Source of the DNA: Sphingobacteriales bacterium
GTDB lineage: Bacteria > Bacteroidota > Bacteroidia > Chitinophagales > Chitinophagaceae
Direction of reading: 5' to 3'
Assembly: GCA_900299255.1 (NCBI GenBank)
Contig: OMJB01000053.1
Coordinates: 1-35,165 of the forward strand
DNA length: 35,165 nucleotides
The position numbers and the translations under genes are program-made. Within the stretch, counting starts at the first letter, position 1. Each line of letters opens with the position of its first letter. This document shows, piece after piece, positions 9,672 through 11,980 of the stretch. The notes below the pieces were generated by a model, which saw only the letters and a program-made list of their open reading frames with translations, ran no database searches and was not told the origin of the DNA.

Positions 9672-9719
9672 GCCTGCCAGCCCCCACCTGCGGTGTAAAT
9701 ATTTTTGAATAGTACATAG

Positions 9720-9750
9720 TTGCTAAGGTGCGGATATAGTCTTACTTTTG
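9720..9750 (+). promoter_or_regulatory. Bacteroidota promoter (TTG-N20-TACTTTTG) for the tRNA region
   Basis: TTG at 9720-9722 is followed after 20 bp by TACTTTTG (9743-9750), which fits TAnnTTTG. It lies 53 bp before the first base of the tRNA-Arg-like sequence at 9804 and well before the GIY-YIG gene. It would transcribe the disrupted tRNA, the nuclease gene and possibly the intact tRNA-Arg. Confidence 0.6.
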
Positions 9751-9799
9751 CAACTCTTTAAAAATGGAAGCCGTGCAGTATCCGGTTGATTTTTTTTAG

Positions 9800-9828
9800 A
9801 ATTGGTTGCGTAGTTCAATGGATAGAAT
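9800..9828 (+). repeat. 29-bp direct repeat, left copy (tRNA-Arg 5' end)
   Basis: Identical to 10130-10158 over 29 bases, 330 bp apart. It holds the acceptor 5' strand (GGTTGCG) and the whole D-arm of a tRNA. The two copies bracket the GIY-YIG gene. Confidence 0.9.
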
Positions 9829-9891
9829 ACCCGCCCGTACCGAACGGTACGTTCGGGCAGGGAAGTTTCCTAAACTTTTGATACAGGTTCG
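9804..9891 (+). pseudogene. Disrupted tRNA-Arg(CCU), 5' part with hairpin insert
   Basis: The order is: acceptor strand GGTTGCG, D-arm GTTCAATGGATAGAAT, a 34-nt GC-rich hairpin (9829-9862), an anticodon stem-loop with loop TTCCTAA (anticodon CCT, 9867-9873), a variable loop, then CAGGTTCGA of the T-arm. There the tRNA stops: the 3' half of the T-stem and the 3' acceptor strand are missing, and the ATG of the GIY-YIG gene follows directly. An intact tRNA of the same specificity lies at 10315. It cannot form a normal tRNA as it stands. Confidence 0.75.
9829..9862 (+). repeat. GC-rich hairpin inside the broken tRNA
   Basis: CCCGCCC (9830-9836) pairs with GGGCAGGG (9855-9862) with one bulged A. 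Inside it GTACCG (9837-9842) pairs with CGGTAC (9845-9850) around AA. It sits exactly between the D-arm and the anticodon stem, where tRNAs have a single nucleotide. Confidence 0.75.
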
Positions 9892-10143
9892 ATGTTTTAT
9901 ACTTACGTTATTCAGAGTAAAAACGATTCGGGGTATTATTACAAAGGACATTGTCAGGACATAGAAGTAAGGCTAAAGGAACACAATAGCGGAAAAACAA
10001 AATCGAATAAACACGAGGCGCCATTTCTTCTGGTGTACTTTGAGACTAGTGAGACAAGAGAAGAAGCAATTGAAAAAGAGAAATATTGGAAAACTGCTGC
10101 GGGTAGGAGATATTTGCAGAAGAAATTAAAATTGGTTGCGTAG
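9892..10143 (+). CDS. GIY-YIG domain nuclease nested in tRNA-Arg sequence
   Basis: An 83-residue single-domain GIY-YIG protein. The variant motif is TYV...YKG (residues 4-6 and 17-19), followed by the conserved Arg in VRLKEHN, the SGKTKSNK segment, a LVYFET strand, the catalytic-type Glu in TREEAIEKE, and the C-terminal YWKTAAGRRYLQKK helix. The order and spacing are those of small UvrC/homing-type GIY-YIG proteins. The start codon lies in the T-loop of the broken tRNA-Arg (GGTTCGATG); the nearest in-frame upstream stop is the TAA of the anticodon loop (9871-9873). The stop codon TAG (10141-10143) is part of the second copy of the tRNA 5' end, which also encodes the last residues LVA. The gene therefore exactly fills the space between two tRNA pieces. 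It probably nicks or cuts DNA; its target is inferred to be the tRNA gene. Confidence 0.88.
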   Translation: MFYTYVIQSKNDSGYYYKGHCQDIEVRLKEHNSGKTKSNKHEAPFLLVYFETSETREEAIEKEKYWKTAAGRRYLQKKLKLVA

Positions 10144-10158
10144 TTCAATGGATAGAAT
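10130..10158 (+). repeat. 29-bp direct repeat, right copy (tRNA-Arg 5' end)
   Basis: Second identical copy of 9800-9828. After 10158 the sequence no longer fits a tRNA: the anticodon stem does not pair and no T-arm is present. It supplies the stop codon of the GIY-YIG gene. Confidence 0.9.
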
Positions 10159-10314
10159 GTCGGGTTCTTAAACAAATCGGTTCTTTGAATGATAAACTTC
10201 AATAAAATCAATGGTTTACAAATTTTGGGGAAACCAACTGAGCAGTAAAGTGAGCAGTGATTGTGTCAGTGCGAACTAAGTTTGGTTAAATTTGACCGAA
10301 GATTTATCAAAATT

Positions 10315-10389
10315 GGCCCTGTAGTTAAATGGATATAACCAGCGTTTCCTAAACGTTAATTCCAAGTTCGATTCTTGGCGGGGCTACCA
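10315..10389 (+). tRNA. tRNA-Arg (anticodon CCU)
   Basis: All four arms fold. The acceptor GGCCCTG pairs with CGGGGCT (with G-T pairs), followed by discriminator A and an encoded CCA. The D-arm is GTTA/TAAC. The anticodon arm AGCGT-TTCCTAA-ACGTT gives anticodon CCT. The T-arm is CCAAG-TTCGATT-CTTGG. It is followed at once by a terminator hairpin and a decayed integrated element, so its 3' half probably served as an attachment site. Confidence 0.93.
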
Positions 10390-11425
10390 AAGCGGAATTC
10401 CCAGTCACAAGCTGGGAATTTTTATTTACTGCCCCCTTGAAACCCCTTGATTTTACAATACTTTGGCGCAAAAACAGATTGATTCCAGAAGTTCGATAAT
10501 CCTGTTTTTCACGATCATATACCAATGGCGAATTTATTACTGCTTTTTGCAATCTCTTCCTACCATGAACATCACAAGAATTGTAGATTTCATTGAGGTT
10601 TTCAAGCATTTTTAAGCCAGAATCTACATTGTCTGAAAAGTTCGATAATTGATCTTCACACTCCTAGAGTTGTGGGCGCAATACTTCCAATTCTGAATTA
10701 ATTTGTGACTTGGCTATTTCATAAATCTCATTATCTATTTCACCAGTTGCATATCTGATTTTAACTTTGTTTAGTTTCTCTTCCTTTTCCTGAACAGATT
10801 TAAGAAGCCAAGCGTGGCGTTCATTTTTTCTTTTTGTACATCATGCATTAAATCATTTAATTCAATCTTTACTTGATGTTTAATTTATTCAGGAATTGAA
10901 ATATGGCTTAATAGGGCATTAAATTTATTGTCCAGTATTACATTGCTAACATTGAGTCTACACCCCTTTGTATTGCATTTATAGTAGTACTTATCCTTCA
11001 CTTTTTTATAATATCCAGTTAGGTTTTTACCGCATTTGTCACATTTCAAAAAGCCTTTCAAAGCTAAATGATCGTATTCAGATTCTAGCTTTCGATATTC
11101 CCTACAATAATTAGGATCATTTACTTTTAACCATAAGTCCTCAGTTACTAGAGGTTCATGAATGCCTTTAATAAGCTCATTTTCTTCTAGTAAACCATGT
11201 GTTATTATTCCACAATAAAATGGATTCTCTAAAATTCGATAGCAATATTTCTCCTTTACATTTAGACCTTTATTGCGCACAATTTGGTAAATCTCTGACA
11301 CCTCCAACTTCCTTTCACCTCTTAAATGGAACATATCTCTTATTAAATCAGCGTTTTTCCCATCGGGTACACAAATACTTCGTTTTCCTCGTATCACTTT
11401 TTTGTAACCGACCAATGGCCTATAT
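10349..11425 (-). pseudogene. Large serine recombinase, 5'-deleted and disrupted
   Basis: Read on the minus strand from 11425, this is the middle and C-terminal part of a large serine recombinase. It starts in the Recombinase domain (VGYKKVIRGKR, then CVPDGKNADLIRDMF and YCYRILENPFYCGII), followed by the zinc ribbon (CDKCGKNLTGYY ... YYKCNTKGC) and a coiled-coil C-terminus. The catalytic resolvase domain is absent. Damage visible: a TAA stop at 10885-10887 after HISIPE, a one-base loss in the A-run at 10822-10827, and a TAG at 10664-10666; the correct frame resumes as MLENLNEIYNSCDVHGRKRL. The frame continues to 10349, reading antisense through the 3' half of the tRNA-Arg (VAPPRIELG). Large serine recombinases integrate phages and genomic islands; this copy is inactive. 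Confidence 0.88.
10396..10423 (+). terminator. Rho-independent terminator of the tRNA-Arg
   Basis: A perfect 9-bp stem AATTCCCAG (10396-10404) / CTGGGAATT (10412-10420) with a 7-nt loop is followed by TTTATTT. It begins six bases after the encoded CCA. Confidence 0.8.
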
Positions 11426-11980
11426 GTGAATAGAGGGGTTGAGGCTTTTATTAGAACATACGGATACAATGACAAACTTGGACGGGAAGCCAGAATGAAT
11501 TTTGGTGGCATTCATAAATATGGGGAAATACAGCCATCAACTCAATTGAAGTTAGTATTAGAAGGTTACAACAAAGAAAAACAGAAAATAGAGGATACCG
11601 ACGGCTTTATGGGTCTAACGGATTCATCCGGTAACATTGCTGCCTCATGGTCTTTTGCTTCTTTGTTAAAACACTGGAATACCAAGCACGCTAATGCATG
11701 TTATGTCCCATCTTTAAACAGAAAAATGGTTAATGGCATCTTTACCCAGCAGTATTCGTACGGCAATCTTGTTATGCTTGGCTCCAATACTGACTTTTCC
11801 ATTTTCCTTAAGCAAGTAGCAGACGGGCATATATATTATGACCCTGGAATAAAACTGGAATTAGCTATCCCCGATGTGCGTAAGCAAAATATAAAACGGC
11901 GAAGTCAATTCAGAATAAAAGCAAGTAGTTTGCGCAGCCTGTATAAAGAAAATGAAGTCGTAAATCTAGAAAATATATAG
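11426..11980 (+). pseudogene. MvaI/BcnI-type restriction endonuclease, C-terminal fragment
   Basis: The open frame starts at a GTG (11426) with no ATG and no plausible leader; it is open only back to 11408, so the 5' end is lost. The 184 residues fit my recollection of the C-terminal half of MvaI/BcnI-family type II enzymes: FIRTYGY, GREARMNFG, LVLEGY, WSFASLLKHWNTKHANACYVPS, YSYGN, TDFSIFLKQVADGHIYYDPGIK, KRRSQFRI, and SLRSLYKEN at the end. The N-terminal region that carries the catalytic D/E-x-K residues in MvaI is missing, so it should be inactive. Its broken 5' end touches the broken 5' end of the recombinase pseudogene on the other strand. No methyltransferase gene is present in the window. 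Confidence 0.7.

Follow-up and report, generated by a model that had tools for sequence, protein, structure and literature searches.

A GIY-YIG nuclease gene framed by partial tRNA-Arg copies

The window, by which we mean the whole stretch of DNA analysed here, comprises positions 1–35,165 (forward strand) of contig OMJB01000053.1 from Sphingobacteriales bacterium (Chitinophagaceae), assembly GCA_900299255.1. An earlier note on this DNA had described a GIY-YIG nuclease gene fitted exactly between two pieces of a tRNA-Arg gene. The features at the locus are the following, where L141 and L002 are orthologous sites in relatives, empty and occupied, respectively:

9743..9750, + strand: TACTTTTG, candidate promoter of the native tRNA-Arg(CCT) locus, proposed from sequence; the same motif precedes the tRNA in empty orthologous sites, e.g. 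L141, L129 and L138
9800..9828, + strand: 29-bp exact direct repeat, copy 1 (repeat comparison)
9804..9829, + strand: broken tRNA-Arg(CCT) copy, positions 1–26, which agrees letter for letter with the intact tRNA at the empty site L141
9830..9861, + strand: palindrome P, type A, CCCGCCCG...CGGGCAGG, a clean 32-bp insertion between tRNA positions 26 and 27; same site in L002
9862..9893, + strand: broken tRNA-Arg(CCT) copy resumed, positions 27–58 (anticodon arm, variable region, 5' half of the T-arm)
9892..10143, + strand: GIY-YIG nuclease gene, 83 aa, catalytic domain only (ORF call and Pfam)
10130..10158, + strand: 29-bp exact direct repeat, copy 2, containing the gene's stop codon (10141–10143); tRNA 5' end from 10134
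10315..10389, + strand: intact tRNA-Arg(CCT) with a different acceptor stem (Rfam tRNA model and ARAGORN)

The borders are as the note had described them. The two 29-bp repeats are identical, the ATG of the gene (9892–9894) overlaps tRNA positions 57–58 in the T-loop (GGTTCGATG), and the in-frame stop ahead of it (TAA, 9871–9873) is formed by the anticodon loop of the broken tRNA. The gene's own stop (TAG, 10141–10143) corresponds to tRNA positions 8–10 of the second 5' copy and is therefore at the acceptor/D-stem junction. Two features had been overlooked: the palindrome at 9830–9861, which is GC-rich and missing from the intact tRNA at L141, and the intact tRNA at 10315–10389. The latter was the only tRNA found when positions 9700–10450 were scanned with the Rfam tRNA model (E up to 1) and with ARAGORN, so both copies flanking the gene are unrecognisable as tRNAs. 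The promoter consensus in Bacteroidota is TAnnTTTG, and the candidate promoter TACTTTTG now stands upstream of the broken tRNA copy and the GIY-YIG gene.

The encoded protein matches the Pfam GIY-YIG family (PF01541) with an E value of 1.5e-14 and 54.5 bits, against a curated cut-off of 22.6, which places it among the GIY-YIG domain proteins. This is its sole Pfam match, with nothing resembling the tyrosine (HuH) transposase of REP/RAYT systems, and it has no domain beyond the catalytic one. In an alignment of 22 relatives the columns Y5, Y17, G19, R27, H31, A59, E63 and K67 are invariant; they include the conserved Tyr, Tyr-x-Gly, Arg and Glu of the GIY-YIG domain (Y5, Y17, G19, R27 and E63), which we take to be the catalytic positions. 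The protein is under purifying selection in the few pairs where this is measurable, with dN/dS of 0.05–0.22 in 6/17 between-locus pairs with estimable dS (dS being saturated in three of those six); two pairs from arrays gave 0.64 and 0.71, from few changes. A search of 15 hand-picked genomes returned some copies that have internal stops or are shortened (L258, L261, L264 and L266), as expected for units that are gained, decay and are lost.

The window protein had no PADLOC match; weak matches were obtained for two of five family proteins, one of them labelled 'homing endonuclease'. Searches of plasmids, phages and viral contigs with the window protein or its close alignment returned no match; for the phages, this covered 50,697 records, searched with the window protein at an E value of 1e-5.

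Orthologous sites with and without the nuclease gene

The gene order guaA – DUF3467 – gldD-like lipoprotein – tRNA-Arg(CCT) is common to several genomes of the genus, and the comparison of this locus in relatives that had been proposed in the note could be made. In genome G016 (L002) the place orthologous to the window's is occupied (upstream protein 94% identical over the matched part), with one palindrome at the same site as in the window and a second in the D-loop. At seven sites (L128, L129, L131, L132, L137, L138 and L141) the same upstream gene is followed by one intact tRNA without a nuclease gene, and the tRNA arms at L141 are the same as those of the window's broken copy. Occupied sites (the window and L002) and empty ones (these seven) therefore coexist at one orthologous place, as is looked for in a homing endonuclease. 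Across 20 tRNA-Arg(CCT) loci of the genus the gene is present only in the window's and in L142; among 30 tRNA-Arg(TCT) loci fetched from the genus, 7 have the nuclease gene and 23 have none. In two occupied genomes, G009 (L285) and G020 (L284), the intact Arg-TCT tRNA shows 100% identity with its counterpart in 12 genomes lacking the gene at the fetched locus. Classical donor-site protection is therefore not evident, which speaks against classical homing. One flank of the intact tRNA is altered in many loci, while the tRNA itself is unaltered in the two occupied genomes relative to the 12 unoccupied loci.

At L124, L125 and L127 a truncated tRNA is followed by an intact tRNA-Arg(CCT), with no nuclease gene. 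The window has the same arrangement together with a serine-recombinase remnant (10885–11511; PF07508, PF13408), which is on the other strand and outside the unit; the unit itself contains the GIY-YIG ORF only, and has neither the tyrosine nor the serine integrase of an integrase-type tRNA element. From the arrangement shared with L124, L125 and L127 we infer that an unrelated integrative element probably truncated the window's second tRNA copy and brought in the intact tRNA at 10315–10389. The exact fit of the gene between two 5' pieces, as first described, would therefore be partly a matter of local history. In the window (10159–11511) the recombinase remnant adjoins the extra tRNA-Arg(CCT), and another type of element seems to use the same tRNA gene both here and at L124, L125 and L127.

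tRNA copies accompany high-scoring relatives of the gene across Bacteroidota

A search with the window protein gave matches in 23 of 35 genomes of the genus, and a family-profile search gave matches in 128 of 198 genomes of the phylum, other GIY-YIG subfamilies included. From the genus and the best-scoring phylum matches we collected 122 loci; removal of 7 duplicates left 115, and L051 and L074 were then found to be one place, giving 114 distinct loci. Sixty of the loci were extra, hand-picked ones, 58 from the best-scoring phylum matches listed and two from arrays in G012; because they were chosen in this way, the 114 loci represent the high-scoring end of the family. A same-strand tRNA copy lies beside the gene, that is within about 330–410 bp, in 111 of the 114. 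An ARAGORN-called tRNA is beside it in 101, a set that includes a few palindrome-bearing copies (L021, L067), and an ARAGORN tRNA together with a broken copy in 94. Of 286 real windows, 170 attained the score set for a broken copy; none of 286 shuffled ones did. One ARAGORN call, a 'tRNA-Lys(CTT)' at 1185–1260 of L021, has an anticodon arm that looks like a palindrome replacement.

Two orders are found: intact tRNA, gene, broken copy (mostly a 3' part); or broken copy (mostly a 5' part), gene, intact tRNA. The proposal that the unit carries or duplicates the tRNA 5' end thus suits the window's order and does not extend to the larger group of loci, where the intact tRNA is upstream and the broken copy mostly retains the 3' part. 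The repeat reaches beyond the tRNA border by a median of 9 bases of extra leader (33 cases) or 8 of extra trailer (64 cases). Half of the cases measured thus end no more than 9 bases from the border, which is what recombination through an arm of tRNA homology would be expected to leave.

We also inspected 80 named relatives of the window's lineage, at least three of which (L173, L205 and L207) coincide with L002, L003 and L004. They span Chitinophagia, Sphingobacteriia, Cytophagia, Flavobacteriia, Bacteroidia and Saprospiria (NCBI), with 17 lacking a class. A same-strand tRNA was called within 400 bp in 71 of the 80 and was a tRNA-Arg in 70 of these 71; in the other nine, pieces of tRNA-Arg were seen by eye in seven and not clearly in L236 and L241. 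Open reading frames whose end codons overlap a tRNA, which the note had suggested looking for in Bacteroidota, do occur: 16 of the 80 named loci have the gene's stop within the tRNA that follows it, 13 of them at U8-A9-G10, as in the window.

The same gene outside a tRNA context had been named as the case that would speak against a tRNA-targeting unit. It was seen only in more distant GIY-YIG proteins and in three of the 114 loci without any tRNA sign, L071, L079 and L094, the first two of which are near contig ends. For a longer GIY-YIG subfamily in the genus (an assignment made by eye from protein sequences, as for all longer subfamilies here), ARAGORN found a tRNA in the fetched flanks of 0 of 15 loci, and of six other loci in the same set four adjoin a tRNA; none was called at L259, and the only one at L264 is 1.3 kb off. 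In 45 hand-picked phylum genomes with weak best matches, a same-strand tRNA (Asn, Val or Leu) was within 400 bp in 8 of the 30 fetched loci; most of the 22 without one look by eye like longer subfamilies, with L310, L311 and the short L315 not clearly so. Weaker relatives mostly lack the tRNA, and we therefore regard the tRNA habit as belonging to one subfamily rather than to small GIY-YIG proteins generally. The longer GIY-YIG subfamilies without tRNA neighbours encode proteins of about 95–120 aa (L260, L262, L263, L267, L269–L279; L152, L162), and the genes at L152 and L162 have a type-D palindrome within 200 bp.

Nuclease lineages tend to keep to one tRNA isotype and one palindrome type

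A tree of the nucleases was built from 112 rows and 77 columns, in which 9 of 108 inner branches are starred and many forks are unresolved; it leaves out three unlabelled loci and rows under 70 bits and includes both L051 and L074. On this tree tRNA isotype changes 31 times, compared with a mean of 78.3 and a minimum of 71 in 200 shuffles, and host family changes 52 times, compared with 71.5 (minimum 65). The nuclease tree tracks tRNA isotype more than host family. Lineages pass from one isoacceptor to another for the same amino acid (Leu CAG, CAA, GAG and TAA; Ser TGA, GGA, GCT and CGA) and also from one host family to another; lineages that are tied to a target and cross host taxonomy are what is looked for in homing endonucleases. 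Palindrome types, which are regular expressions drawn up after inspecting the loci and leave 16 of the 112 rows untyped, were treated in the same way: in the 96 typed rows there are 19 changes, compared with 44.2 on shuffling within host family (minimum 37) and 33.1 on shuffling within isotype (minimum 27), with 300 shuffles each. As isotype and palindrome type both follow the nuclease tree, nuclease, isotype and palindrome travel together.

Twenty-two loci hold two or more genes of at least 60 bits. In 21 of them there is exactly one ARAGORN tRNA of the partner isotype; in the exception, L067, two called tRNAs seem to bear a palindrome in the D-arm. Identical array members occur in L069, L070 and L078.

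Palindromes in the broken tRNA copies

Judged by eye, the broken tRNA copies carry short palindromes, which are single or double hairpins. A formal count gave 109 clean palindrome insertions at 61 distinct isotype-and-site pairs, and 51 of these 61 sites fall in or at positions that are unpaired in the cloverleaf; 38.0 were expected, and the maximum in 2000 random draws was 49. In Ala, Lys, Gly, Pro and Val units the hairpin mostly substitutes, by eye, for the anticodon arm and the T-loop is kept; since these units mostly change the anticodon arm, a T-loop target shared by all lineages was set aside. The palindrome is already present in copies that are otherwise identical to the intact tRNA over the aligned part (L003, 73/73; L012, 74/74; L013, 75/75; L107, 82/82).

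Palindrome types are distributed differently over the genomes. In the 80 named loci, arms of type A were counted 175 times in the 72 kb surrounding the gene and 12 times in the remaining 294 kb; type A as a genome-wide repeat was discarded, the strict pattern being found once each in 2 of 35 genomes, both times within units. Type B (CCTGCCTGCCGGCAGGCAGG, up to 2 mismatches) is present in 0–85 copies per genome across the 35 genomes of the genus (e.g. G018, G028, G014). It is commoner in the 9 genomes with a type-B nuclease locus, as assigned by reading the search results, than in the 26 without (one-sided Mann-Whitney p 0.0012; p 0.009 after subtracting the two own copies), and in four genomes with 23–50 type-B palindromes a type-B nuclease was not seen. 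Type D is dispersed in 7 of 12 hand-picked genomes, and 25 of 30 sampled type-D loci are, by eye, outside a tRNA context. Support was weak for the idea that dispersed palindromes target inverted repeats in their flanks: around 27 type-D copies the mean run was 2.70 against 2.30, and 42 of 1000 shuffles were as high.

At about 630–1075 of L121 there are tandem broken tRNA-Ala copies without a nuclease gene, and at 1169–1632 of L149 a row of palindromes with about 110-bp spacing follows a tRNA-Pro; both may be non-autonomous units.

Discussion

That the window holds a small tRNA-targeting unit, consisting of one gene and part of a tRNA, had been proposed from the window alone; the proposal is now well supported by the tRNA copies beside nearly all high-scoring loci, by empty sites with a single tRNA and by isotype fidelity. 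We consider that the window unit is probably one copy of a homing-like mobile unit of Bacteroidota that is specific for tRNA genes and has a partner palindrome. Such a unit would combine a GIY-YIG nuclease reduced to its catalytic domain with a stretch of tRNA sequence as an arm and with the short palindrome that is typical of the nuclease lineage. The nuclease would break a tRNA gene of its own isotype, and the break would be repaired from a resident unit, presumably by recombination through tRNA homology. The nuclease gene would thereby be left between two tRNA copies, one of them complete, such that the cell retains its tRNA, and the other copy would be displaced and marked by the palindrome in a cloverleaf loop. 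Further rounds at the intact tRNA would give tandem arrays of nuclease and broken tRNA. The palindrome may mark the displaced copy and so inactivate or protect it, or it may be a partner that the nuclease mobilises. Spread in the manner of homing, by way of tRNA homology, would explain the anatomy of the loci, their isotype fidelity, both orders and the arrays.

The last possibility can be enlarged into an account in which, as with RAYTs, the GIY-YIG protein chiefly mobilises palindromes into hairpin loops and tRNA genes are merely favoured landing sites. The preference of palindromes for unpaired tRNA positions, the pairing of palindrome types with nuclease lineages, the dispersal of types B and D, and the excess of type-B palindromes in genomes with a type-B nuclease locus all fit this account. 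It sits less well with the four genomes that are rich in type B where no type-B nuclease was seen, with the near restriction of type A to the unit and with the scarcely hairpin-like flanks of the 27 dispersed type-D copies, and it leaves the duplication of the tRNA and the gene's place beside it unexplained; we regard it as unlikely.

A natural cleave-and-rescue device, in which the unit destroys the host tRNA gene and provides a resistant replacement tRNA, might be suggested by L002, where the acceptor stem of the broken copy is the native one, as at L141, and that of the intact tRNA is different. In many loci, however, the two copies are identical or nearly so, palindrome aside, and the identity of the intact Arg-TCT tRNA of G009 and G020 to that of the 12 unoccupied loci leaves a recoded rescue tRNA unsupported, which makes this device very improbable. 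We give as little credence to a conserved host nuclease for tRNA-gene maintenance or repair, inherited with the tRNA, whose spare tRNA copies collect random palindromes. The dN/dS of 0.05–0.22 in the six between-locus pairs would agree with a host gene, as would the failure of the window protein or its close alignment, used as query, to find copies on plasmids, phages or viral contigs. A host gene would not, however, be expected to be patchy at orthologous sites, to cross isoacceptors and host families, to occur as copies that are shortened or have internal stops, or to have a palindrome type bound to its lineage, and palindromes are present where a copy is otherwise unaltered over the aligned part (L003, L012, L107).

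Returning to the homing-like unit, its parts can be joined in a broader proposal: an undescribed mobile class in which a bare GIY-YIG nuclease co-evolves with its own palindrome, each lineage keeps to one isotype, landing is in cloverleaf loops, and gene borders can be taken from universal tRNA positions. With borders of that kind, tRNA maturation would cut the nuclease mRNA and so limit the nuclease. We advance this combination tentatively, judging it slightly more apt to fail than to hold as a whole.

Among known systems, SegB of phages T4 and T6 is the closest, and is a close functional model for the Bacteroidota units. According to the excerpts of the reports available to us, it is a GIY-YIG homing endonuclease, free-standing and encoded within a phage tRNA cluster, whose cuts fall inside tRNA genes (PMC13096335); it drives tandem amplification of the tRNA-segB unit and is widely tRNA-linked in phages (PMC13096335; PMC2988022). 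Both systems have a GIY-YIG enzyme adjoining tRNA genes, and by its letters the motif reported for SegB, RAWTSGAAC, looks like the complement of a T-loop. SegB is a phage gene for which those excerpts report no isotype preference, whereas the units described here are chromosomal and isotype-faithful, encode proteins of about 80 aa and have palindromes in tRNA loops. REP/RAYT (TnpA-REP) systems, as far as the portions of the literature available to us describe them, likewise pair short palindromes with a nuclease lineage, some of the types being scattered through the genome. RAYTs belong to the tyrosine HuH enzymes, whereas the partner of the palindromes here is a GIY-YIG protein and is sited in tRNA genes. 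Small stand-alone GIY-YIG domains are also found in UPF0213 proteins (1zg2 and 1ywl, matched at E 1.4e-5 and 3.5e-5), for which we know of no linkage to tRNA genes. Palindromes in Bacteroidetes are mentioned, in the accessible part of one account, with no link to GIY-YIG proteins (PMC3733652). The double-hairpin elements of Allomyces mitochondria are tiny hairpins suspected of being mobile, as cited in an excerpt of PMC7218506. Some palindromes here are double hairpins too; the Allomyces elements are mitochondrial, whereas the present units are bacterial and chromosomal. To our knowledge no partner nuclease accompanies the Allomyces elements. In titles and abstract openings, mostly from open-access journals and excluding bioRxiv, we found no account of GIY-YIG genes paired with palindromes in Bacteroidota tRNA genes.

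The unit thus looks like an undescribed tRNA-targeting mobile unit whose lineages tend to one kind of tRNA and one hairpin insert. For annotation there is a warning in that ARAGORN calls some palindrome-bearing copies tRNAs, such as the 'tRNA-Lys(CTT)' of L021. The homing-like unit would account for a widespread, unexplained small gene and for the broken tRNA copies adjacent to it, would add a bacterial counterpart to phage SegB, and would offer a natural example, open to testing, in which a nuclease and a palindrome are paired.
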